Shown here piece by piece: positions 2,906 through 34,730 of a DNA stretch of 53,301 nucleotides. The stretch is from a virus. The stretch is taken from positions 1 through 53,301 of the IMG/VR virus record IMGVR_UViG_3300032297_000671. One strand, written 5' to 3'. Numbering within the stretch: the stretch's first letter is position 1; each line of letters begins with the position of its first letter. The position numbers and the translations under genes are program-made. The notes below the pieces were generated by a model. The model had not been told where the DNA came from. It saw nothing but the letters and a program-made list of their open reading frames with translations, and did no database searches.

Positions 2906-5518
2906 ATGGATTTACTAAATCAATTGAAAACTCTAAGAGATAATACTAATTCTCCTGAAGTGAGAACACTGTGTGAATCTCACATAAAAAACATCCAAGA
3001 AGGAACTGTTACTTTGAATGAATCTGAAATTATTGAATCGGTTAACGAGGCAAATAATTCTGCTTCGAATGAAGTAAATCCAATGGAAATGCTAAGAAAG
3101 CAAGAACTTGAAAAATCTAAATCAATGGCTTCTAGACTTATGGAGTCTTGGGGTGGTTTAGGATCTTCTTTTTCTAAAACTTCTGGTTCTTACGTTGACG
3201 GAAAAACTGAGGAGAAAAAAGACTTAGCTTCTAATATTTCTGAGAGCCTATCTCAATTTGCTGATAATGATCCTGCAGCTAAAGCATTTGTTCAGTCACA
3301 AGGAGTTAATAACTTAGGAGTTTATGAATCTATACTTTCTATAAAAGGACAAGGAATATATGAGCATCCTAATGTTAAGGTTCTTTGTGAGAAATACACA
3401 CACCTTATTAAGTCTCAAAATTTACCAGAGTTTCTTGTAGCTGAATCGTTTGCTTCAGAAATACAAAACTTTACATGGGACAATAAAGTAAAATCCATTT
3501 ACGAAAAAATTTCAGAGAGCTTAAATTCTCTTAAACCTGAGATTGAGGTTTCTAAAGCTTTATATTCGATCGAAAGAAATGCTGGATCTGATTTCTATTC
3601 TCCTGTTACAGAGTCATTGAACAAATGGCTAGTTTCTGAGAATAAATCGGTTGCTTTGTTATCAAAAGAATTGTCTAGATGGTCTTTCAATCCAGCTGTA
3701 AGAAATCTTGTTAATAGTCTTTCATTAATGGAAAGCTCTAATGAAAAATTAAGCATTCCTGTTAATAGTGGAAATTCTTCAGTAAGTAGATTATTCTCTC
3801 CAGTTTTAGTTGGTAGCGGTAAAACAACATTTACTATCGGAAGTAACGTTTTTGAAGGTAATGCAGAAGGTATCAGAAAGTTATCTAACAAGGAGATTTC
3901 AGAATTACCTAAAAACTTTATGAGCTTATTGGAGTCTTTCTATTCTCCGATGGTTAAGGTTAACGAGAGCGGTATCTCATACTTTATTGGCGATAAAGCT
4001 TACAAATTGGTAGGGGAAAACGATTCAGTTAACATTTACTCAAAGGGTAATAAAATTAAATTCGCTGATAATACACAATTGGCAAAACAGATCGCTCTTG
4101 AGATTTCTGGAACTTTTGGTATTAACGAATCAAAAGCAATTTCTGATTTGATCAACATCTACGAAAATTTTGATCAAATCGTAGAATTGGACTTTGCAAA
4201 AAGATTAGATTCTAAGGTTTATGAGGGAGCATCAGTTAATCTTATTAAATGGGAGAATAAGCTCTATTTGAACAAGATCAATTCTGCAATGAATGAGAAT
4301 TCTTTGTACGTTGTAAACGGAACTCAGGCTTCTTCTATGATTAAGGAGTTTTTAAAGTATGACATATCAGAAGGTCTTACCGAGTTTTTAGACGGAGAAA
4401 ATAGAATCAAATCTATCATGATTAACGATAGAGCTCAGATTATTGAAAACATCACTATCGTGGAAAAAGAGATTCAGAAAATCGAAGCTACGATGTCTCA
4501 AAATCCTGTATTTACTAACTCTAAAGAATTACAAAGAGCTAAATCTCTCTTAGAGCAGGAGCTTAATACATTGAGACAAAAATGGTCTGCTGTTAACGAA
4601 GAAATTGAGAAAATCGATTCAGGAGTTTCAGAAGTTCAAAATGTTAACGAGGATGAAAAATTTAATGTTGGAGACTACATTAAAGTTAAAGAGTCTGGAA
4701 ACACAGGAAAAATTATTTCTGTAGATTCTACTTCAGGATCATACACTGTATTGATGGATAATGGCAAAACAGGCGATTATAGAGTAGATGAAATCGTTGA
4801 TATCGAAGAAGCTTTAGCTGATGCAGGTAAAGAGAACGACGAAAAAAGCAAACCACAGGAAGATGAGGAGGAAATAAAGGAGAATGAAATGGCTTCTGCT
4901 CCAACAAAAGCCACTGCCGGTTCTAAAGATATGACTCCTGCTGCTACTATGAAAGCAAATACAACTGCTGCTCCATCTTCGAAAGAGCAAGAAGTTACTA
5001 GCAAAAAAGATGTAGAAAATCTAGATCACGCTAACCTTGAAGAAGCACCTGAGGGTAAAGAAAAAGAAACTAAGTTCGAGGTTAAATTGAAAGATTCGTT
5101 AGTTGATAAGATTGGATACAATGTTAATGAATCAGATCTTGAAAAAACAAATCCTGAACTTGCTGAAGCACCAGGAGGAAAAAGCGATGCTGATTATAAA
5201 GTAGAGATTTCTATCCCTAAAGCTAATAACCCAGAAGCTAGTGATAAAGATCAAGATTTAGCTGATGCACCTGAATCTGGTGTATCTAAGGTAAAGGCTA
5301 ATACAGATCAGAATTTAGCTACCGCTCCAGGTGGAGAATCTGAAGCTGATTATAAAGTTGAAGTTACTATTCCTAAGGCAAATAAGCCAGAAGCTAATGA
5401 TGAAGATCAAAACTTAGCTGATGCACCTGCAGCTGGAACTGAAGCTCAGACTAACGTTGAGGTTAATTCTGAAATGGGATATAACATTGACGAGAGCGAA
5501 GAGTCAAAAAAAAACTAA
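2906..5518 (+). CDS. Large acidic virion-type protein with leader and C-terminal repeats
   Basis: The 870-residue product begins with a leader holding several [L/I]xE sites that fit a T4-type prohead protease: IQE|G (30-32), LNE|S (37-39) and IIE|S (42-44). The middle is helical, with a coiled coil near residues 515-565 and a KOW/SH3-like stretch near 592-622 (KVKESGNTGKIISVDSTSG). From about residue 695 it is acidic with imperfect repeats of the type DLADAP / APGGxSxADYKVExxIPKAN. It ends in the in-frame heptamer A AAA AAC followed directly by TAA, with an open -1 frame beyond. A head-internal or head-associated role is inferred from the leader; no family recognised. Confidence 0.75.
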   Translation: MDLLNQLKTLRDNTNSPEVRTLCESHIKNIQEGTVTLNESEIIESVNEANNSASNEVNPMEMLRKQELEKSKSMASRLMESWGGLGSSFSKTSGSYVDGKTEEKKDLASNISESLSQFADNDPAAKAFVQSQGVNNLGVYESILSIKGQGIYEHPNVKVLCEKYTHLIKSQNLPEFLVAESFASEIQNFTWDNKVKSIYEKISESLNSLKPEIEVSKALYSIERNAGSDFYSPVTESLNKWLVSENKSVALLSKELSRWSFNPAVRNLVNSLSLMESSNEKLSIPVNSGNSSVSRLFSPVLVGSGKTTFTIGSNVFEGNAEGIRKLSNKEISELPKNFMSLLESFYSPMVKVNESGISYFIGDKAYKLVGENDSVNIYSKGNKIKFADNTQLAKQIALEISGTFGINESKAISDLINIYENFDQIVELDFAKRLDSKVYEGASVNLIKWENKLYLNKINSAMNENSLYVVNGTQASSMIKEFLKYDISEGLTEFLDGENRIKSIMINDRAQIIENITIVEKEIQKIEATMSQNPVFTNSKELQRAKSLLEQELNTLRQKWSAVNEEIEKIDSGVSEVQNVNEDEKFNVGDYIKVKESGNTGKIISVDSTSGSYTVLMDNGKTGDYRVDEIVDIEEALADAGKENDEKSKPQEDEEEIKENEMASAPTKATAGSKDMTPAATMKANTTAAPSSKEQEVTSKKDVENLDHANLEEAPEGKEKETKFEVKLKDSLVDKIGYNVNESDLEKTNPELAEAPGGKSDADYKVEISIPKANNPEASDKDQDLADAPESGVSKVKANTDQNLATAPGGESEADYKVEVTIPKANKPEANDEDQNLADAPAAGTEAQTNVEVNSEMGYNIDESEESKKN
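5509..5515 (+). promoter_or_regulatory. Probable -1 ribosomal frameshift site (A AAA AAC)
   Basis: The heptamer is in the correct phase for a tandem slip (zero-frame codons AAA AAC) and the zero-frame stop TAA is the very next codon. Slippage by -1 reads CTA AAA AAA ATA into a 58-codon open frame. A AAA AAC and A AAA AAG are classical slippery sequences. No stable structure is obvious at the usual 5-9 base spacing. Confidence 0.6.
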
Positions 5519-5691
5519 AAAAAATACTTAGTAGAGTTTGGTCGTTTGCACCATCAAGCTCTGATCAAAACGAAAGTCCAAAGCCTTTCGTTGATGATTT
5601 AAAAGATCGAATGAGCGTTGCACCTGATGGTAAAGAACCAGAGGACGCAACGCTCATTTCTTCTGATGAGGATTCTGAAGATCGTAAATAG
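5515..5691 (+). CDS. -1 frame extension of the 870-residue protein
   Basis: An open frame of 58 codons ends at TAG 5689-5691 and has no convincing start of its own: the frame is closed upstream by TGA at 5488 and its only ATG (5611) would leave 26 residues. Its sequence has the same character as the protein it would extend: acidic, Ser-rich, and containing SVAPDGKEPE, close to the EEAPEGKEKE found in the upstream repeats. It is best read as the C-terminus of a 928-residue frameshift product; a sequencing error or a true indel in the A9 run would give the same picture. Confidence 0.6.
   Translation, partial: LKKILSRVWSFAPSSSDQNESPKPFVDDLKDRMSVAPDGKEPEDATLISSDEDSEDRK
5610..5658 (+). repeat. 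12-bp inverted repeat inside the frameshift extension
   Basis: AATGAGCGTTGC (5610-5621) pairs perfectly with GCAACGCTCATT (5647-5658) around a 25-base loop. No T run follows, so it is not a standard terminator. It lies about 95 bases after the slippery site, too far for a classical stimulatory stem. Confidence 0.6.
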
Positions 5692-5752: not shown

Positions 5753-6112
5753 ATGGCAAAAGAATATGTTAGAAATGCGGATTTAATGGCCGCTATCCTT
5801 GAATGTAAGGAAAAGGGCGAATTAACTCCGCGTACTATAAAGATGTTCACGCTTATGATAAACGGAATCTCTAAAAAAATGGCTTATAGAGATCCTGAAG
5901 ATAAGGAAGATTGCATGGCTTTTGCTATGGAGGACTTAGTAAAATATTGGAATAGATTTGATCCAACAAAATCTAATAACCCATTCTCGTACTATACACA
6001 AATTGCAAAGAATGGATTTGCGAAAGGATGGAAAAAAATACATCCACCAAAAGCACCAAAAACAATACCTTTTTCTTACATCACTGGTGAGGATAATTCG
6101 TACAACGTTTAA
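5753..6112 (+). CDS. gp55: Late transcription sigma factor, T4 gp55-like
   Basis: The 119-residue protein aligns by eye along most of T4 gp55: VRNADLMAAILECK matches the gp55 start (NNKELLQAI), and residues 75-95 (NPFSYYTQIAKNGFAKGWKK) match gp55 [20 protein letters not shown]. In T4, gp55 replaces sigma70 on core RNA polymerase and reads the simple late promoter TATAAATA with help from gp33 and the clamp gp45. This version is shorter (T4 has 185 residues), mostly at the termini. It precedes head genes gp4 and gp20 and is the natural candidate to read the repeated GATATATARA motif of this genome. Confidence 0.85.
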   Translation: MAKEYVRNADLMAAILECKEKGELTPRTIKMFTLMINGISKKMAYRDPEDKEDCMAFAMEDLVKYWNRFDPTKSNNPFSYYTQIAKNGFAKGWKKIHPPKAPKTIPFSYITGEDNSYNV

Positions 6113-7233: not shown

Positions 7234-8862
7234 ATGGCAGGATTCACAGATAACCCACAAGGAAATCCCATATTTCAAAGAATTAAGGATTCAGTAAAAT
7301 CCCTGAGTAATTTTGGATTAAGGTACGGTGATATGGTCATTAGGAACTCCCAGGCTATCGGTCAGACCGAAGCTGAGTTCATGAAGAAAGGTCCTATCGA
7401 AGATGATACAATGTTGTATTCACTAGGTAGACAAGATACAACAACAAAGCAATTTATTGGTTATTTTGATAAGGATTACGCAGGTAAGAGAGATTACCTT
7501 AGAAAGTTTTCACTAAATCCTGAAATCGAATATATTCTGGATACTGTTTGTGACGAGTCCATAACTTACGATTCCTATAATTTTTTTGCATACCCAGCTT
7601 TTCTTAATCTAACCAATATAAAAGAAAAGGTTATAAATAGAATTGACTCAAACTACAAGAAATTGTATGATATGTTTGGGTTTAGCGACGATAGCACTGC
7701 TTGGCAATATTTCAGGCAGCTTCTTGTTGACGGATTTATCGCATTTGAGATTATTTACGATGACAAGGGTAAAAATATCATAGGATTTAAAGAACTTGAT
7801 GCAACGACATTAATGCCATCTGTAGAAAAACAGAAGGATGGATCTTTTCTTAATGTTTGGTATCAATATCCTAAGGACATTAATAAGAAGAGAATGCTCT
7901 ATGATTCTCAGATAGTCTATATCTCATATGCTAAGGGAAATACAGTTTCCAGGGTTTCTTATGCTGAAAGATTGATTAGACCTTATAACATATTAAGAAT
8001 CATAGAGTATACCCGTGTTATATGGTCGGTAATGAACGCTTCATTCAGGATGAAGATGACAGTTCCTATCGGATCAAGATCACCTCAGAAGTCAATGCAA
8101 ACCTTAGGTGAATTGATGAGTATCTATAAAGAGGATATAAGATTTAATGACGATAGTGGAGAACTTACTGTAGACGGTAGACCGAAAATACAGTTCTACA
8201 AAAATTATCTTATGCCTTCAGGTGTAAATGGTACACCAACTATCGAGCCTTTAAACACTGCGGGTCCTAATCTTAATGATCCCGCTCCATTAGCATATTT
8301 CTTTGACAAATTAGCACAGGAATCAAAAATTCCTTTTTCTAGATTCCAAGGACCGGATGGAGGATCTATAGGTCAATATTCAAATTCTGCAGAAGGACTT
8401 GACAAGGAAGAAATCAGATTTGCAAAATTTGTAACGAGATTGAGATCTATATTTCAGGATATCCTTGTTAAGCCACTATGGATCCAGATGTGTAAGGATT
8501 TTCCGGAGCTTGAAAAGGATTATCTTTTTAAAAGTCAACTTGGATTAACTTTTGTTTCTGATAACCCATTTAGGGTAAATCAAGAAATAGAGACCATGAC
8601 AAAAAAGAAAGAGTCTATTGATAGTCTTTATGGGTTAACTGATGAAGATGGTAAGCCATTCTTTTCTTTAGCTTATCTTATAGAGAGCTATTTGGGTATG
8701 ACTGCTGATGATATTAAGGCTAATGAGGAGGCAAAGAAAAAAAGAAAAGAAGAATTAAAGAAGGAAGGTAAAAGTGAAGAAGCTGCTGCACCTGCTGAGG
8801 GATCTGCAGAACCTGCGGAACCTGCAGAAACACCCGAAACAGAAACACCTCCAGCTGAATAA
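7234..8862 (+). CDS. gp20: Portal protein, T4 gp20-like, copy A
   Basis: The 542-residue protein has the gp20 pattern: DKDYAGKRDYLRKFS with EIEYILDTVCDESI near residues 75-105 (nucleating domain), WQYFRQLLVDGFIAFEI, the core ELTVDGRPKIQFYKNYL near 310-328, and the stretch SRFQGPDGG...EIRFAKFVTRLR leading to the crown helix. Length equals T4 gp20 (524) plus an acidic Ala/Pro/Glu-rich tail of about 50 residues. Gp20 forms the dodecameric DNA gate at one capsid vertex and starts head assembly. It is followed 11 bases later by a full second portal gene. Confidence 0.92.
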   Translation: MAGFTDNPQGNPIFQRIKDSVKSLSNFGLRYGDMVIRNSQAIGQTEAEFMKKGPIEDDTMLYSLGRQDTTTKQFIGYFDKDYAGKRDYLRKFSLNPEIEYILDTVCDESITYDSYNFFAYPAFLNLTNIKEKVINRIDSNYKKLYDMFGFSDDSTAWQYFRQLLVDGFIAFEIIYDDKGKNIIGFKELDATTLMPSVEKQKDGSFLNVWYQYPKDINKKRMLYDSQIVYISYAKGNTVSRVSYAERLIRPYNILRIIEYTRVIWSVMNASFRMKMTVPIGSRSPQKSMQTLGELMSIYKEDIRFNDDSGELTVDGRPKIQFYKNYLMPSGVNGTPTIEPLNTAGPNLNDPAPLAYFFDKLAQESKIPFSRFQGPDGGSIGQYSNSAEGLDKEEIRFAKFVTRLRSIFQDILVKPLWIQMCKDFPELEKDYLFKSQLGLTFVSDNPFRVNQEIETMTKKKESIDSLYGLTDEDGKPFFSLAYLIESYLGMTADDIKANEEAKKKRKEELKKEGKSEEAAAPAEGSAEPAEPAETPETETPPAE

Positions 8863-8873
8863 AATAAAACGAT

Positions 8874-10478
8874 ATGGCCGGATTTCTAGATAACGTAGCG
8901 GAAAGAACATTCTTAGGTAACCTGTACAAAAACCTATCCAGAATAGGTAAGTTTGGTATGGAGTACCAAGATATGGTTATTAAAAATTCACAGGCAATTG
9001 GTTCGACAGAATCTAATTTTTTTAATGAGCAAGGGAGCGGATTTACTGAGAATGATGCTTTTAGATGGACTCTTGGATATCAAGATACCCAAATTAGAAA
9101 ATACATTGCTTATTTTGATAAGGATTATGTAGGTAAGAGGGATTTTCTTCGAAAATTTTCCTTGAATGGTGAGATTGATTTTATTCTTGATACAATTACC
9201 GATGATTCTGTAAATTACGATGATAAGAATTTCTTTTCTTATCCATCACTAGCAAACATAGATCTTAAGAATAATGTTGTAGATAAGTTGGACGAAACGT
9301 ACAGGAATCTCTATATGCTTTTCGGTTTCCAGCAGAGTATTCTTGCCTGGCAATATTTTAGACAATTCCTGATAGACGGTTTTCTTGCATTTGAGATTGT
9401 ATATTCTACCGATGGTAAAAAAATTGTAGGTTTTAAAGAGCTCGATGCTACTTCACTTCAGCCAGCAACAGAAAAACAACCTAACGGTGAATTCCAGCAA
9501 ATTTGGATTCAATACCCGAATGATAATAAGATGACCAGAAGGTTAAAAGCTGAACAGATTATTTATATTTCTTATGCTAAGGGTAACACAGTCTCTAGAG
9601 TTAGCTATGTAGAAAGATTAATAAGATCATACAATATCCTACGTATAATGGAAAATACTAGGGTTATTTGGAATGTTATGAATGCCTCTTATCGTTTGAA
9701 ATTTGTCATCCCTGTTGGTAGTCAATCACAGCAGAAAGCAATGCAAACCCTTGGGCAGTTAATGTCTATCTACAAGGAGGAAATAGATCTGAATGATTTT
9801 TCCGGAGAATTAACAGTAAACGGTAGACCAAAGGTTCAATTTTATAAGAATTATTTGTTTCCTGAGAAAGATGGACAATCTCCAGATATTTCGACCCTGG
9901 ATCCTAATGGTCCGGATTTTAATGTGATGGAGAACGTTGTTTATTTCTATAATAAACTTAAACTAGATTCAAAAATACCTTATGCTAGATTTGCTTTTAG
10001 AGGGGGTACACCAGCAAATTATCAGATAGCCATAGATCAGCTTGAAAGGGATGAAATAAGATATGAGAAATTCTTAACTAGACTTAGATCAATCTTCCAA
10101 GAAATACTCGTTAAACCTCTTTATATTCAGATGTGTTTGGATTTTCCTGAATTATCAAAGGATAGATCATTTAAGGCTAATTTAGGTCTGGATTTTGTAA
10201 GAGAGAATTTGTTTGAAGAATTAATACAGCTTCAGAATTATACCAAGAGAAGCGATTTTATTACTGCTCTTGGAGGAATGAACCAGAAAATAGGAGAAGC
10301 TGAAACCCCTTACTTTGATAAAGAATTTCTAATAAAAAGATTCCTTGGTATTACTATGGATGAGTTTAGGAAGAATGAAAAGTATAAGGAAAACGAAGCT
10401 AAGGAAGCTAAAAAGGCTGAAAAAGAAGGTGGTGCTACTGAAGAAGGTGGCGGTGGTGGAGAAAGCTTTACTCTTTAA
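8874..10478 (+). CDS. gp20: Portal protein, T4 gp20-like, copy B
   Basis: The 534-residue protein matches copy A throughout and in the same order: DKDYVGKRDFLRKFS, AWQYFRQFLIDGFLAFEIVY, YISYAKGNTVSRVSYVERLI, ELTVNGRPKVQFYKNYL and EILVKPLYIQMCLDFPELS. Roughly half of the positions look identical by eye. Differences cluster at the N-terminus, in the loop after GRPKxQFYKNYL and in the tail, which here is Lys/Glu then Gly-rich. Both copies retain every core block, so neither looks decayed. They could form mixed rings or two types of portal, or one may have a separate role. Confidence 0.9.
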   Translation: MAGFLDNVAERTFLGNLYKNLSRIGKFGMEYQDMVIKNSQAIGSTESNFFNEQGSGFTENDAFRWTLGYQDTQIRKYIAYFDKDYVGKRDFLRKFSLNGEIDFILDTITDDSVNYDDKNFFSYPSLANIDLKNNVVDKLDETYRNLYMLFGFQQSILAWQYFRQFLIDGFLAFEIVYSTDGKKIVGFKELDATSLQPATEKQPNGEFQQIWIQYPNDNKMTRRLKAEQIIYISYAKGNTVSRVSYVERLIRSYNILRIMENTRVIWNVMNASYRLKFVIPVGSQSQQKAMQTLGQLMSIYKEEIDLNDFSGELTVNGRPKVQFYKNYLFPEKDGQSPDISTLDPNGPDFNVMENVVYFYNKLKLDSKIPYARFAFRGGTPANYQIAIDQLERDEIRYEKFLTRLRSIFQEILVKPLYIQMCLDFPELSKDRSFKANLGLDFVRENLFEELIQLQNYTKRSDFITALGGMNQKIGEAETPYFDKEFLIKRFLGITMDEFRKNEKYKENEAKEAKKAEKEGGATEEGGGGGESFTL

Positions 10479-10490
10479 AACTAATATTCT

Positions 10491-11453
10491 TTGGATCTAG
10501 CCAATCTTATTTCAAAGAAAAGAATTCTCGTAGTAGGAGATTCTATACTCGACGAATACATTTACGGGAAAGTATACAGGATATCACCAGAAGCTCCAGT
10601 TCCTGTTGTGCTGAAATCTAATAGATCTTATTGTTTAGGTGGTGCCTCAAATGTAGCACAGAATATTATCTCTATGGGAGCTAGTTGTGATCTAATATCG
10701 ATTATAGGAAAAGATCATGCTGGTGATAAATTGTCATCCCTTTGTAAAGATATCGGAATAAATCTAATAGGATTAGATGACGGAAGATCAACTACTGTTA
10801 AATCTAGGGTTATTGGAAATGGCCATCAGATAGTAAGAATCGATGAGGAATCAACTTTTCCTATATCAGAGCATATTGAAAATTGTTTAATTGAGCTTGT
10901 GAATTCTGCTTCACATCTTGTAGATGGAGTTATCATACAGGATTACGGAAAGGGGTTGGTAACAAAAAGAGTTGTTGATCATATCAACTCGTTATTTTCT
11001 AAAAAATTAGTACCAGTTCTAGTCGATCCTAAGGATAATGATATTTCAAAATATTCGGGATCACACATAATAAAGCCAAATCTTTCTGAATTCAAGAATT
11101 TTTTAGGCGTAGATCAAAATATCAAGTTATCTGGGAATGATATAAAAAATAGAGCCATGGATCTAATGCTCAATAACAGCGTAGGATCGCTTTTAATAAC
11201 ACTTTCAGAAAAAGGTATGGTTTATGTTAAAGATGATCTTTTTGTTACCGACAGGGGTGTAAAAATCGATATAACTGATGTTTCTGGTGCGGGTGATACT
11301 GTTAGTGCAGTCTTTATGCTATTTTACCTTGCAGGAATGCCTATCAGTGATTGCTTAAGAGCCTCAAATCTAGCTGGATCACAAGTTTGTAAGATTTCCG
11401 GGGCAGTTCCAGTTAATCTAAATTTGCTTATAGCAGACTTTAATGCCGGATAA
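10491..11453 (+). CDS. rfaE1: Heptose-7-phosphate kinase (RfaE1/HldE kinase domain), PfkB family
   Basis: The 320-residue protein starts at a TTG. GDSILDEYIYGKVYRISPEA at residues 16-35, followed by PVPVV, is the signature of the RfaE/HldE kinase domain, followed by LGGASNVAQN (49-58) and the catalytic anion-hole motif VSGAGDT (about 264-270). This family phosphorylates D-glycero-D-manno-heptose 7-phosphate at C1 on the route to ADP-heptose for LPS core. There is no attached nucleotidyltransferase domain, so this is the kinase half only. It follows the second portal gene by 12 bases. Carriage with glycosyltransferase-like genes later in the window suggests sugar or surface chemistry; substrate unproven. 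Confidence 0.85.
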   Translation: MDLANLISKKRILVVGDSILDEYIYGKVYRISPEAPVPVVLKSNRSYCLGGASNVAQNIISMGASCDLISIIGKDHAGDKLSSLCKDIGINLIGLDDGRSTTVKSRVIGNGHQIVRIDEESTFPISEHIENCLIELVNSASHLVDGVIIQDYGKGLVTKRVVDHINSLFSKKLVPVLVDPKDNDISKYSGSHIIKPNLSEFKNFLGVDQNIKLSGNDIKNRAMDLMLNNSVGSLLITLSEKGMVYVKDDLFVTDRGVKIDITDVSGAGDTVSAVFMLFYLAGMPISDCLRASNLAGSQVCKISGAVPVNLNLLIADFNAG

Positions 11454-23383: not shown

Positions 23384-25396
23384 ATGGGAAATAATCCAAA
23401 TTCATTGAACGAGAATCTATTCTTTATATTAGAAAAGCAAAATGACAATCTTGCCGTTTCTAAAGTAGATTCCGATTCAGGTAAAGAATACATTCTTCAG
23501 GGAATAGCTGCTCAGTTTGGCAAGGAAAACAATAACAATAGAATCTATGAGGAAGGTGAATATCTTCCGCATCTTGACTATTTAAAGGACAAGATCAAAC
23601 AAAAAAGACTCCTAGGAGAATTGGATCACCCAGAAAAGTTTGATGTTTCTTTAAAAAATATTTCTCACGTTATCGACGATTTAGAATACGATAAAGACGG
23701 GAGAGTTCTTAAGATCAAGGTAAAATTGTTAGATACACCTGCTGGTCAGATAGCTAAAAAATTAGTTGATGCTGGAATTCCTTTAAGTATTAGTTCTAGA
23801 GCCGCTGGTCAAGTTGGACCAGATAAAAAGGTTCAAATCAAGAAGATTTTTACGTATGATTTAGTTGCTGATCCTGGTTTTCAAGATGCTCAGCTAGAGA
23901 GAGTTTATGAGTCTGCAGACTTTGTTACGTTCGTTGATCACCAAAAAAATTCAATAATAAACAGTCTTGAATGCGTAAATGAATCATTTGGATTAGAAAA
24001 TGAAAATTCATTGAAGATATATAAAGTTGAAAATAACGAGGAATTCGAAAAACTCTTTAAGTCAGAAGAAAAAAATAAATCCGCTACTATGGAGCAAAAA
24101 GAATATGTGACTGCTGATGAACTCAATAAATATTCTATCTTTTTAAAGAAGAAAATGGATGAGCTTGAGGCACAAATAAATGAAATGAAAAACGATGCTT
24201 CAGTATCTGAAGCTTCAACTGTTACAACTACTGACACTTCTGCTTTAGAAGAAAGGGTAGCTAAGCTTGAGAAATATTCAGAGTATCTTGCTGAAAATCT
24301 AGACGGTGCAATTAAATATGGTGAATATCTTGCTGAGAATCTAGACAACAGCATCACTTACTCTAAGTATCTTGCTGAAAATCTTGATAAGAACATCTCT
24401 TATGCTAAGTATCTAGCTGAGAATGTTGATAAGTCTATTTCATATTCAGAGTATGTTGCTGAGAATGTTGATAAGGCTATCGACTATTCTAAATATTTAG
24501 CTGAGAAAGTTGATGATGGTATTCAATACACAGAATATGTTGCTGAGAACCTTGATAAAAATATCGCTTATTCTGAGTATCTTGCAGAAAACCTAGATAA
24601 AGGTATCGCTTATTCTGAGTATCTTGCAGAAAACCTAGATAAAGGTATTGCTTATTCAGAATACATCGCAGAAAAATTAGATCAAGGAATTCACTTCACT
24701 GAATACCTTGCTGAAAACGTAAACAAGTCGGTATCTTATTCTGAATACATCGCAGAAAACTTAAATAAGGGTATCGCTTATTCAGACTATCTAGCTGAAA
24801 AGCTAAATGGTAACATCGCAGAAACTGAGTCTATCTCAGAGAGCGTAAAAAATGGTAAATCTGTTAACTTGAACGAAAGTGCAAGAGAAAATGCAGAAAT
24901 TATCGCTAACACAGAATTGGTAGAGTCTGGTTTTGCTGGAGATTATAATTCAATCTCAGGCAAAATTGACGCTCTAATTGAATCAGTCAAGACGCAAAAG
25001 ACTGAGGAGAATATAAACGAGGCAAGAACGAAAGTTCAGCCAACTGCTCAAACACAAAAAGCAGATGAGGCATTGAATGAAGGAATTGAATCTAATGTTA
25101 AGTCATCAGGTTACAAGTTTATCGATCAGATGCCAGAGGAATATGCTCAGGTTTGGGAATCCTTAAATGAAAACCATAAGCAATCTATTGTTGCTCAGGC
25201 TTCTTTCTACAATTTGGAAACTCAATATCAGATCAATAACTTCTGGTCTACTAGACAACTTGATACAAAAACAATTGGACTTCAAAAACTTCAAGAAAGC
25301 CAAGAAACACCAGAACCAACAAAAGAAAGCTTATCACCTGCATATTCTAACGACTATGTACAGTGGGTAGCTAAGTCTCTTGAAGGTAAGTTTTAA
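23384..25396 (+). CDS. gp21: Prohead protease (gp21-like) fused to a repetitive scaffold
   Basis: Residues 36-180 form a T4 gp21-type serine protease: QFGKENNNNRIYEE, LLGELDHPE with His82, ISHVI, LDTPAG, and GIPLSISSRAAG with the nucleophile at Ser137 or Ser138. The next 470 residues are scaffold-like: charged helix, then thirteen 14-residue repeats of EYLAENLDKGIAYS type (24281-24826), then a polar tail with several LNE sites. In T4, protease (gp21) and core scaffold (gp22) are separate genes. A LNE|N at residues 8-10 may be the self-processing site. It lies 23 bases before the capsid gene. Confidence 0.88.
   Translation: MGNNPNSLNENLFFILEKQNDNLAVSKVDSDSGKEYILQGIAAQFGKENNNNRIYEEGEYLPHLDYLKDKIKQKRLLGELDHPEKFDVSLKNISHVIDDLEYDKDGRVLKIKVKLLDTPAGQIAKKLVDAGIPLSISSRAAGQVGPDKKVQIKKIFTYDLVADPGFQDAQLERVYESADFVTFVDHQKNSIINSLECVNESFGLENENSLKIYKVENNEEFEKLFKSEEKNKSATMEQKEYVTADELNKYSIFLKKKMDELEAQINEMKNDASVSEASTVTTTDTSALEERVAKLEKYSEYLAENLDGAIKYGEYLAENLDNSITYSKYLAENLDKNISYAKYLAENVDKSISYSEYVAENVDKAIDYSKYLAEKVDDGIQYTEYVAENLDKNIAYSEYLAENLDKGIAYSEYLAENLDKGIAYSEYIAEKLDQGIHFTEYLAENVNKSVSYSEYIAENLNKGIAYSDYLAEKLNGNIAETESISESVKNGKSVNLNESARENAEIIANTELVESGFAGDYNSISGKIDALIESVKTQKTEENINEARTKVQPTAQTQKADEALNEGIESNVKSSGYKFIDQMPEEYAQVWESLNENHKQSIVAQASFYNLETQYQINNFWSTRQLDTKTIGLQKLQESQETPEPTKESLSPAYSNDYVQWVAKSLEGKF
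24281..24826 (+). repeat. Thirteen 42-bp in-frame repeats (14 residues each)
   Basis: The consensus is [E/K]Y[L/V/I]AE[N/K][L/V][D/N]KxIxYS, with two adjacent copies identical (EYLAENLDKGIAYS). Each unit carries LAE or a close variant (VAE, IAE) before Asn or Lys. The period of 14 suits a long amphipathic helix or coiled coil. Confidence 0.95.
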
Positions 25397-32844: not shown

Positions 32845-33331
32845 GTTTGCTTCAATCTCAGATTTACCTATATTTAAATTTGAATTTGTCGATTGGTTCA
32901 AAAATTTAGAATTAGTAGATTCCCAAGAATCTACCCATTTATTTGCATTAGGAAAAGAGTCTATGCTAATGCAATTGAATAGAGATGGTCTTTTACCTGA
33001 TTTCATTCTCGATAGAGGTATTTTAACAGTTATGACCTGGGGAATACTTTCAGGAAGAATAACTGAATCCAAGGCACATGAGCAACTTTCCATGATTTGT
33101 GAAGCAGGTCTTTTCGATAACATTAGGATATTCTATGTGGTTGGTGAAAATCCAGACCGGTCTAGTAGGAATAAGGATGTTTGGGACTTTAGAGAATCCG
33201 ATAATAGAGAATCTGAGATCATGGAAAATCTAAGAGATCATATTTCTAATAATCCATATAACGTGCAGGTTGAGTACATTTTTAATGAATTCAACGAAGA
33301 TTCTGTACGATCTCTACATAAATTTATATAA
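32789..33331 (+). CDS. P-loop kinase-like protein
   Basis: The 180-residue protein opens with FEGQRNSGKTFLA, a Walker A motif (GxxxSGKT at 7-14) that fixes the start at 32789 despite the 56-base overlap with the previous gene. FILDRGIL (about 71-78) resembles the DR motif of thymidylate and deoxynucleoside kinases, and a Arg/Asp-rich lid-like stretch (RSSRNKDVWDFRESDNR) follows. Likely a small nucleotide or nucleoside kinase; substrate unknown. The next start is 2 bases after its stop. Confidence 0.6.
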   Translation: MITIFEGQRNSGKTFLAHKFASISDLPIFKFEFVDWFKNLELVDSQESTHLFALGKESMLMQLNRDGLLPDFILDRGILTVMTWGILSGRITESKAHEQLSMICEAGLFDNIRIFYVVGENPDRSSRNKDVWDFRESDNRESEIMENLRDHISNNPYNVQVEYIFNEFNEDSVRSLHKFI

Positions 33332-33332
33332 A

Positions 33333-34730
33333 ATGTGCGGTATACTAATAACTAAAGAAATCTCGGACAGAGTAATCGATTCGATTAAACATAGAGGAAT
33401 TGAAAAAACAATTGTTAGTAAGGGATTGTTTAATCTTTGTCATCACAGACTTCCTATCCAAACCTCAGATGGCGATGATTGGAACCAGCCAAAGGAGATA
33501 AGTCCTGGGATCTTCCTCTTGTTCAATGGAGAGATATTTAATTACGATAGAAATAGGTATTCATCAGACATCGAGTATCTCTGTAGTTTATTTTCTAACT
33601 ATCGTGGTGGAAACTTCGATTTATTTTGTGCTTTCTATCTTTCTCAGATACAAACATGGGATGGATTTTGGGCTATAGTTTTATATGATGCTAATCTTAA
33701 TGAGGCTATTGCTTTTACAGATCCTTTAGGAAAGAAGTCTTTGTATTTCAATAATATTGGTGAGATCTGTTCTGAGATAAAGGGAGTAGTTAGTGATAAT
33801 TCCCCGATTGATGAAATCTTTATGAGCTCAGTTAGAAAATGGGGATATAATACAGACGAGAGAACTCCATATACGGATGTCAAGAGAATTTTACCAAATG
33901 ACATCTACCATTTGAATCTAGATAACGTAGAAATTAGAAAGATCTATAAAGAATATTACAAGGGATTCGATTCCCCAATAACTGAATTAATAGGTGCTTC
34001 CTACGAGGATCACATGGAGTGGTTATGGAGCAAAATGTTTGAGTCAGTTAAGAATAGACTTGTATCAAAAAACTACCCAATTTCTTTGCTAATTTCTGGT
34101 GGACTTGATTCCTCTATCATAGCTTCTATATTAAAAGAAATTGGTGCTGACGTCAGGTGGTTTAGTATAGAGAATGGTGAAAGGGAATATGTTGAATTGC
34201 TTTCTGAGTACTTATCAACTAACGTAACATTCCTTGACTATTCGATGGAGGATGATAAGAATGACGAGATATACAAAAAATGGAACGAGTCCCCAATTGA
34301 TCTCGGATCAGCTATTCCTCAGTATTACTTATTTGAAGCTATTAAAAAATTCGGAGGATATCGTATAGTTTTAAGTGGTGATGGATCTGACGAACTCTTT
34401 GGAGGATACAGAAGGATCCACGAATACGATTCACAGAAATCTGATATCTTCGAGGAGCTTTCTTATTATCACTTGCCTAGACTTGATAAGATGTCAATGG
34501 CACATACTTTAGAATTGAGAAGCCCATTCCTTAATCTTGATCTTGTTAGATTTGCTCTACATTTACCTAAGGAATGGAGAACAGATAAAAAAATTCTAAA
34601 GGACACCTTTGCACCGATATTACCCGAGGAAATAGTCAATAGAAAAAAAGAAGCTCTAAAGAATCCTCAGATAAAAGAAGATAAAATAAAGTATCGATAT
34701 AAGGTAATTGACAGATTTATTAAGCAGTAG
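33333..34730 (+). CDS. asnB: Class II glutamine-dependent asparagine synthetase-like
   Basis: The start is set at MCGILI, giving the N-terminal Cys nucleophile of the Ntn glutaminase domain, for a product of 465 residues. Further glutaminase signs are HRLPIQT and FNGEIFN. The synthetase domain has the PP-loop SLLISGGLDSSII (about 250-262) and LSGDGSDELFGGY (about 347-359). Shorter than AsnB (about 550) but with both active sites. It converts Asp to Asn or amidates a related carboxylate; WbpS-type relatives amidate sugars. Neighbouring glycosyltransferase-like genes favour a surface-glycan role, though Asn supply is equally possible. Confidence 0.85.
   Translation: MCGILITKEISDRVIDSIKHRGIEKTIVSKGLFNLCHHRLPIQTSDGDDWNQPKEISPGIFLLFNGEIFNYDRNRYSSDIEYLCSLFSNYRGGNFDLFCAFYLSQIQTWDGFWAIVLYDANLNEAIAFTDPLGKKSLYFNNIGEICSEIKGVVSDNSPIDEIFMSSVRKWGYNTDERTPYTDVKRILPNDIYHLNLDNVEIRKIYKEYYKGFDSPITELIGASYEDHMEWLWSKMFESVKNRLVSKNYPISLLISGGLDSSIIASILKEIGADVRWFSIENGEREYVELLSEYLSTNVTFLDYSMEDDKNDEIYKKWNESPIDLGSAIPQYYLFEAIKKFGGYRIVLSGDGSDELFGGYRRIHEYDSQKSDIFEELSYYHLPRLDKMSMAHTLELRSPFLNLDLVRFALHLPKEWRTDKKILKDTFAPILPEEIVNRKKEALKNPQIKEDKIKYRYKVIDRFIKQ

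Follow-up and report, generated by a model that had tools for sequence, protein, structure and literature searches.

The poly-A run and its surroundings

The DNA examined here is a virus record in IMG/VR, and the window, meaning the whole stretch that was analysed, is 53 kb long (53,301 nucleotides). Genes for a gp55-type sigma factor, a gp4-type head closure protein, gp20-type portals, a gp21-type protease, a gp23-type capsid protein, a ligase and a clamp loader lie in the window, which identifies a T4-like phage. Because the closest annotated relatives of the sigma gene come from phages of Prevotella, Chryseobacterium and Tenacibaculum, the host probably belongs to the Bacteroidota. An Rfam scan of the window gave no match, and a tRNA scan of the window found none. 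The features around the site are as follows.

2906–5518, + strand: main open reading frame (ORF), 870 aa, with homologues conserved in relatives
4889–5428, + strand: tail repeats of the LAxAP/APGGK type (residues 662, 711, 752, 785, 804 and 837)
5506–5514, + strand: putative slippery run of nine A's (A9) in the phase xxA AAA AAA AAC, followed by the stop TAA at 5516–5518; a run of 9 or 10 in each of the 74 distinct contexts
5509–5515, + strand: A_AAA_AAC heptamer within the run, in the phase for a −1 frameshift; its last base is C, T, G or A among relatives
5515–5691, + strand: −1 frame extension of 58 codons, from CTA at 5515 to the stop TAG at 5689–5691
5533–5658, + strand: three strong predicted hairpins in the window's RNA (5533–5562, 5569–5592 and about 5610–5658), not conserved in relatives
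5753–6112, + strand: the next gene, a gp55-type late sigma factor, with synteny retained in relatives

The main ORF ends ...GAG TCA AAA AAA AAC TAA, of which positions 5504–5518 are TCA AAA AAA AAC TAA, so that the zero-frame product finishes with ...EESKKN. This A9 is the sole A/T run of at least nine in the 53 kb of the window, and such runs are also scarce in representative loci of relatives, with 43 off-site across 806 kb, of which many lie just 5′ of a start codon. A second A run, A8, lies at 5517–5524.

The main protein has a helical and mixed core (about residues 1–640) with an SH3/KOW/Tudor-like domain at about residues 588–632, followed by a tail with repeated [LMF]AxAP motifs that is probably disordered. 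We found no homology to known capsid, tail or other structural families by PHROG, Pfam or PDB sequence and fold searches: PHROG gave no match, Pfam matches were all below the cutoff, and the best PDB sequence match had an E value of 0.18. An AlphaFold2 model of residues 1–654 was of middling confidence (mean pLDDT 72, pTM 0.37); in the PDB fold search only small Tudor/KOW-type folds matched convincingly, to the SH3-like part, and in the BFVD fold search the core resembled a protein of Tenacibaculum phage PTm1 (E 2e-17, with low TM-scores). We also considered whether the AP motif is a prohead-protease site of the T4-consensus type and rejected this, as the Ala mostly follows a residue other than Glu and other proteins of the window lack the repeated motif. 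In relatives the gene always precedes the sigma, gp4-type and portal genes, and this constant position suggests that the protein may act in assembly or at a late stage.

Several other features of the neighbourhood were recorded. Two full-length gp20-type portal genes lie in tandem at 7234–8862 and 8874–10478 and share 53% identity; T4 has a single portal gene. Both orthologues were present in 30 of 30 IMG/VR relatives checked (65–88% identity between orthologues and 48–55% between paralogues), with the second copy in some relatives interrupted by the end of the locus, and a ring of mixed portal subunits is conceivable. The gp21-type prohead protease at 23384–25396 has a long, scaffold-like C-terminal part made of short repeats (YLAENLDKGIAYSEYLAEN...). 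The phage also carries a PfkB-type carbohydrate kinase gene (10491–11453) and an asparagine synthase gene (33270–34730). In L061 and L064 about 1.5–2 kb of extra DNA separates the extension from the gp55-type gene, compared with other relatives.

Conservation of the extension and of the run

An earlier note, made from the window's letters, had proposed a programmed −1 shift at an A AAA AAC placed just ahead of the zero-frame TAA, leading into a −1 frame open for 58 codons that had no credible start of its own and contained a repeat-like element. These observations hold. The heptamer stands in phase at 5509–5515, and the −1 frame stays open from 5515 to the TAG at 5689–5691, encoding LKKILSRVWSFAPSSSDQNESPKPFVDDLKDRMSVAPDGKE... 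Its first ATG, GTG or TTG codon is the ATG at 5611, located within the conserved part. The tail motif recurs twice in the extension (SFAP at 5542–5553 and VAPDGKE at 5617–5637), where the note had seen one copy, and the C-terminal part is acidic.

Relatives were drawn from IMG/VR by searches with the main protein, with the extension and later with the extension of a distant clade; a scan of genome contigs for relatives found none. Each of the 33 complete loci from the first round matches TCAAAAAAAAACTAA exactly and has its −1 frame open. In total, 288 fetched loci with the extension (213 in an earlier tally), many of them the same contig fetched repeatedly and amounting to about 120 contigs by a hand count before the last scan, reduced to 74 distinct contexts. 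The run is A9 in 69 of these and A10 in 5, and in none is it shorter or longer. Stop codons throughout the −1 frame of relatives, which the earlier note had named as the finding that would speak against it, were encountered in none.

The extension evolves as a protein, with purifying selection solely in its own frame. For clade 1 (extension LKKILSRVWAFAP...), pooled pN/pS was 0.32 in the −1 frame versus 1.14 and 1.87 in the other two frames; for clade 2 (extension LSRNFYFAPK...), it was 0.29 versus 1.36 and 1.73. In clade 1 the −1 frame is free of stops in every sequence, whereas the other two frames have stops in all, and 38 of 45 columns at codon position 3 are variable against 15 of 45 at position 2. 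Clade 2 likewise has stops in the other frames and none in the −1 frame. Conserved residues start right at the A run, and the extension is preserved at the protein level in relatives as distant as about 40% identity in the main protein.

We then considered the run itself on a tree of 58 core proteins with a length of 9.8 substitutions per site. At least 14 changes fell on the two bases 5′ of the run and at least 8 on the base 3′ of it, and the codon supplying the first A switched its amino acid no fewer than 10 times (among Ser, Leu, Val, Glu and Gln); one label in this tally, '*', is L183, whose run sits in a separate ORF. Over this entire tree the state of at least nine A's was constant, with zero losses. 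Conserved Lys columns of the core use AAA in 51–98% of sequences (mean 75%), and an invariant third base was seen in the core only in Met or Trp columns. The base after the run is C, T or G, or the run extends to A10. L165 retains nine A's in a shifted codon phase (GAA AAA AAA ACC), L172 has A10 with the stop one codon later, and the A10 relatives likewise have the extension in the −1 frame. Because A9 was never lost while flanks, codon and synonymous sites changed, selection has maintained the nine-A length rather than the heptamer. Of the earlier note's expectation that heptamer and extension would both be conserved, the part on the extension stood; the last base of the heptamer varies, and the conserved element is the nine-A run. 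In clade-2 relatives there is a second A9 about 8–16 bases 5′ of the start codon of the same gene (A10 in L078 and L183), located at 4985 in L153, L158, L159, L165, L172 and L180 and at 5985 in L072, L075, L076, L080 and L081, which is perhaps an A-rich leader.

Relative to the main ORF, the extension sits in the −1 frame everywhere but in a single sub-clade, which has it as an in-frame fusion (two contexts) or as a separate ORF (one). In L180, L181, L188, L321 and L332 the zero frame runs on through the same A9 into the extension, such that a −1 slip would shorten the protein. L183–L185 have a main ORF that stops earlier and, for the extension, a small separate ORF that has an ATG of its own; the A9 is retained. 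L180 and L183 are sisters on the tree, nested among phages with the −1 arrangement, which indicates that the fused and separate-ORF states are derived; the A9 in the in-frame sub-clade may be mere recent inheritance. A 617-aa homologue in LR756500.1 lacks the tail, the A9 and the extension. The cultured phages PTm1, MA9V-2 and PAU have, at the same place before a gp55-type sigma gene, a gene for 418–461 aa that also lacks all three; its homology is based on synteny, plus the fold match for PTm1, and not on sequence. A comparison of profiles with the genes at the syntenic position in cultured Tenacibaculum, Chryseobacterium and Sphingomonas phages gave a probability of 10.8%, which is not convincing. 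Because LR756500.1 and the cultured phages are without them, the tail, run and extension were apparently gained within the studied lineage. In L182 (2945–3709) the homologue has an in-frame TAG where relatives have Trp, which could be a nonsense mutation, an error or recoding.

Recoding and how the frame may change

Since the run is conserved and the extension is under selection in its own −1 frame, we regard recoding as such at the A9 site as close to certain. By default, decoding would stop at the TAA and give the protein of 870 aa; in a fraction of events, one A would be added, or one base re-read, at the run. The shift into the −1 frame would then add 58 residues, which include two further AP motifs and supply a new acidic C terminus. 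As phages with an in-frame fusion of the extension have still not lost the run, two isoforms that differ at the C terminus may be needed at a set ratio, and the extension might give minority copies of an assembly- or late-stage protein binding motifs together with the acidic end.

T4-like phages rely on host RNA polymerase, and slippage of this enzyme is probably the main route of the frame change, although we hold this with much less assurance than recoding itself. Its RNA–DNA hybrid of about 9 bp would realign on the run, so that A9 becomes A10 in the mRNA. Polymerase slippage ranks first because nine A's, the number kept here, is the length reported for efficient slippage by bacterial RNA polymerase, with a hybrid of 9–10 bp that is about as long as the run (PMC5009743, PMC1088944), while a ribosomal heptamer would need only six or seven (A6C). 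The site combines a run at or above the threshold of about nine, a length conserved despite free synonymous sites and flanks, and an alternative frame that encodes a conserved product. Against transcriptional slippage, reporter assays showed that E. coli RNA polymerase slips more readily on T runs than on A runs (PMC6260861). The unusually strong downstream structure of the window's own RNA also weighs against polymerase slippage, although the RNA of relatives is not structured in this way.

The main alternative is that ribosomes shift to the −1 frame, by tandem slippage on A_AAA_AAA and/or A_AAA_AAC or by sliding on AAA codons, and so make the extended form. We consider this possible, at roughly one chance in three. 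An A_AAA_AAA or A_AAA_AAN heptamer is in phase in the −1 cases, and nearly all sites have a stop codon directly 3′. Frameshifting on A_AAA_AAC is proven in a cluster of IS elements with no established stimulator (PMC4066793), and E. coli ribosomes are reported to slide along iterated AAA codons (PMC4363877); tandem heptamers or such sliding would likewise favour a longer run. Even so, nine A's are maintained although six plus C suffice, and the final slippery codon may end in C, T, G or A, the base that decides between Asn and Lys. The common stimulators of −1 frameshifting, a downstream structure and an upstream Shine–Dalgarno (SD)-like element, are not obligatory, and neither is conserved here. 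The window itself has strong downstream hairpins, which would suit a ribosomal shift, and its downstream RNA is unusually structured (z −5.3), but single-sequence z-scores for the downstream 60 nt of relatives averaged −0.7, and the RNAalifold consensus reached −2.2 and −0.2 kcal/mol in the two clades, respectively. We rejected a hairpin as a general stimulator, as the alignments contain almost no conserved pairs beyond invariant positions; in clade 1 the predicted pairs are nearly all invariant and are therefore uninformative for or against structure. A conserved SD-like element 5′ of the run was not found across relatives, with GARGAG present in the near clade only. Thus, the part of the earlier note's claim that concerned a conserved C-terminal extension reached by a −1 frame change is upheld, and for the ribosomal route the conserved nine-A length points instead to polymerase slippage.

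Phase variation, in which changes in the length of the DNA tract would leave a single phage making either the short or the long form, is very improbable. Homopolymer tracts slip readily in replication (PMC3711429) and runs of both 9 and 10 occur, but the A10 cases keep the extension in the −1 frame and no mixture of 8, 9 and 10 was seen among contigs. The length of the run, for which the earlier note had wanted raw reads, is uniformly A9 in near-identical contigs from different metagenomes (for example, 11 contigs of the L006 group). Least likely of all is that the extension stands apart from the main protein, as a small gene in its own right or as a remnant: L183–L185 have the small ORF with its own ATG and most clade-1 extensions contain an internal ATG, but the conserved codons start right at the run with no start codon ahead, sister phages (L180, L332) have in-frame fusions, and the repeat motif runs on across the junction.

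Taking polymerase slippage as the favoured route, we give an even chance to the fuller proposal that a T4-like, partly jumbo lineage fixed A9/A10 slippage to set the isoform ratio of a late-region protein, with the default isoform swapped in places while the tract was retained. The A run would be a deeply conserved recoding site across a large group of environmental phages. Ordinary gene calling misses the extension because it has no start codon. As the comparative data tell selection on run length apart from selection on the heptamer, the choice between ribosome and polymerase, usually hard to make, becomes directly testable. More speculatively, because site-bearing phages keep two portal paralogues, the isoform ratio might affect particle assembly.

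Comparison with known systems

In the literature searched, the coverage of which is incomplete, no tailed phage turned up in which programmed transcriptional slippage had been demonstrated; in Campylobacter phage CPt10, slippage has been suggested for a methyltransferase (PMC2853527). The dnaX gene of Thermus thermophilus likewise has a sense-strand A9, and this single gene yields two products (PMC1088944). In dnaX, which encodes a subunit of a cellular DNA polymerase, the longer product comes from the standard frame, whereas in the phage the shorter one does, and slippage was demonstrated in dnaX while we infer it for the phage site. Citrobacter rodentium tssM1 and Yersinia tssM3 resemble the phage gene in having a poly-A run near the stop and C-terminal length variants, and the slipped product is the long form in Citrobacter but the short one in Yersinia (PMC4256274). 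That polarity differs among relatives is a further likeness, as seen with the in-frame L180, L181, L188, L321 and L332. The tssM run differs in being an A11 in a bacterial secretion gene of two species, compared with A9 or A10 in 74 distinct contexts for the phage site. Phage coat and tail-shaft proteins are also known to have C-terminally extended forms, which arise when the frame changes close to the stop (PMC5009743). Those are ribosomal shifts, and our searches found no homology of the main protein to such proteins. The earlier note had suggested a minor virion form; for the main protein such a form, of the T7 10B type, is a candidate reading that draws only on the neighbouring genes. Finally, the A_AAA_AAC site of IS elements has the identical heptamer and, likewise, no established stimulator (PMC4066793), but what the phage site conserves is the nine-A run and not the heptamer alone.
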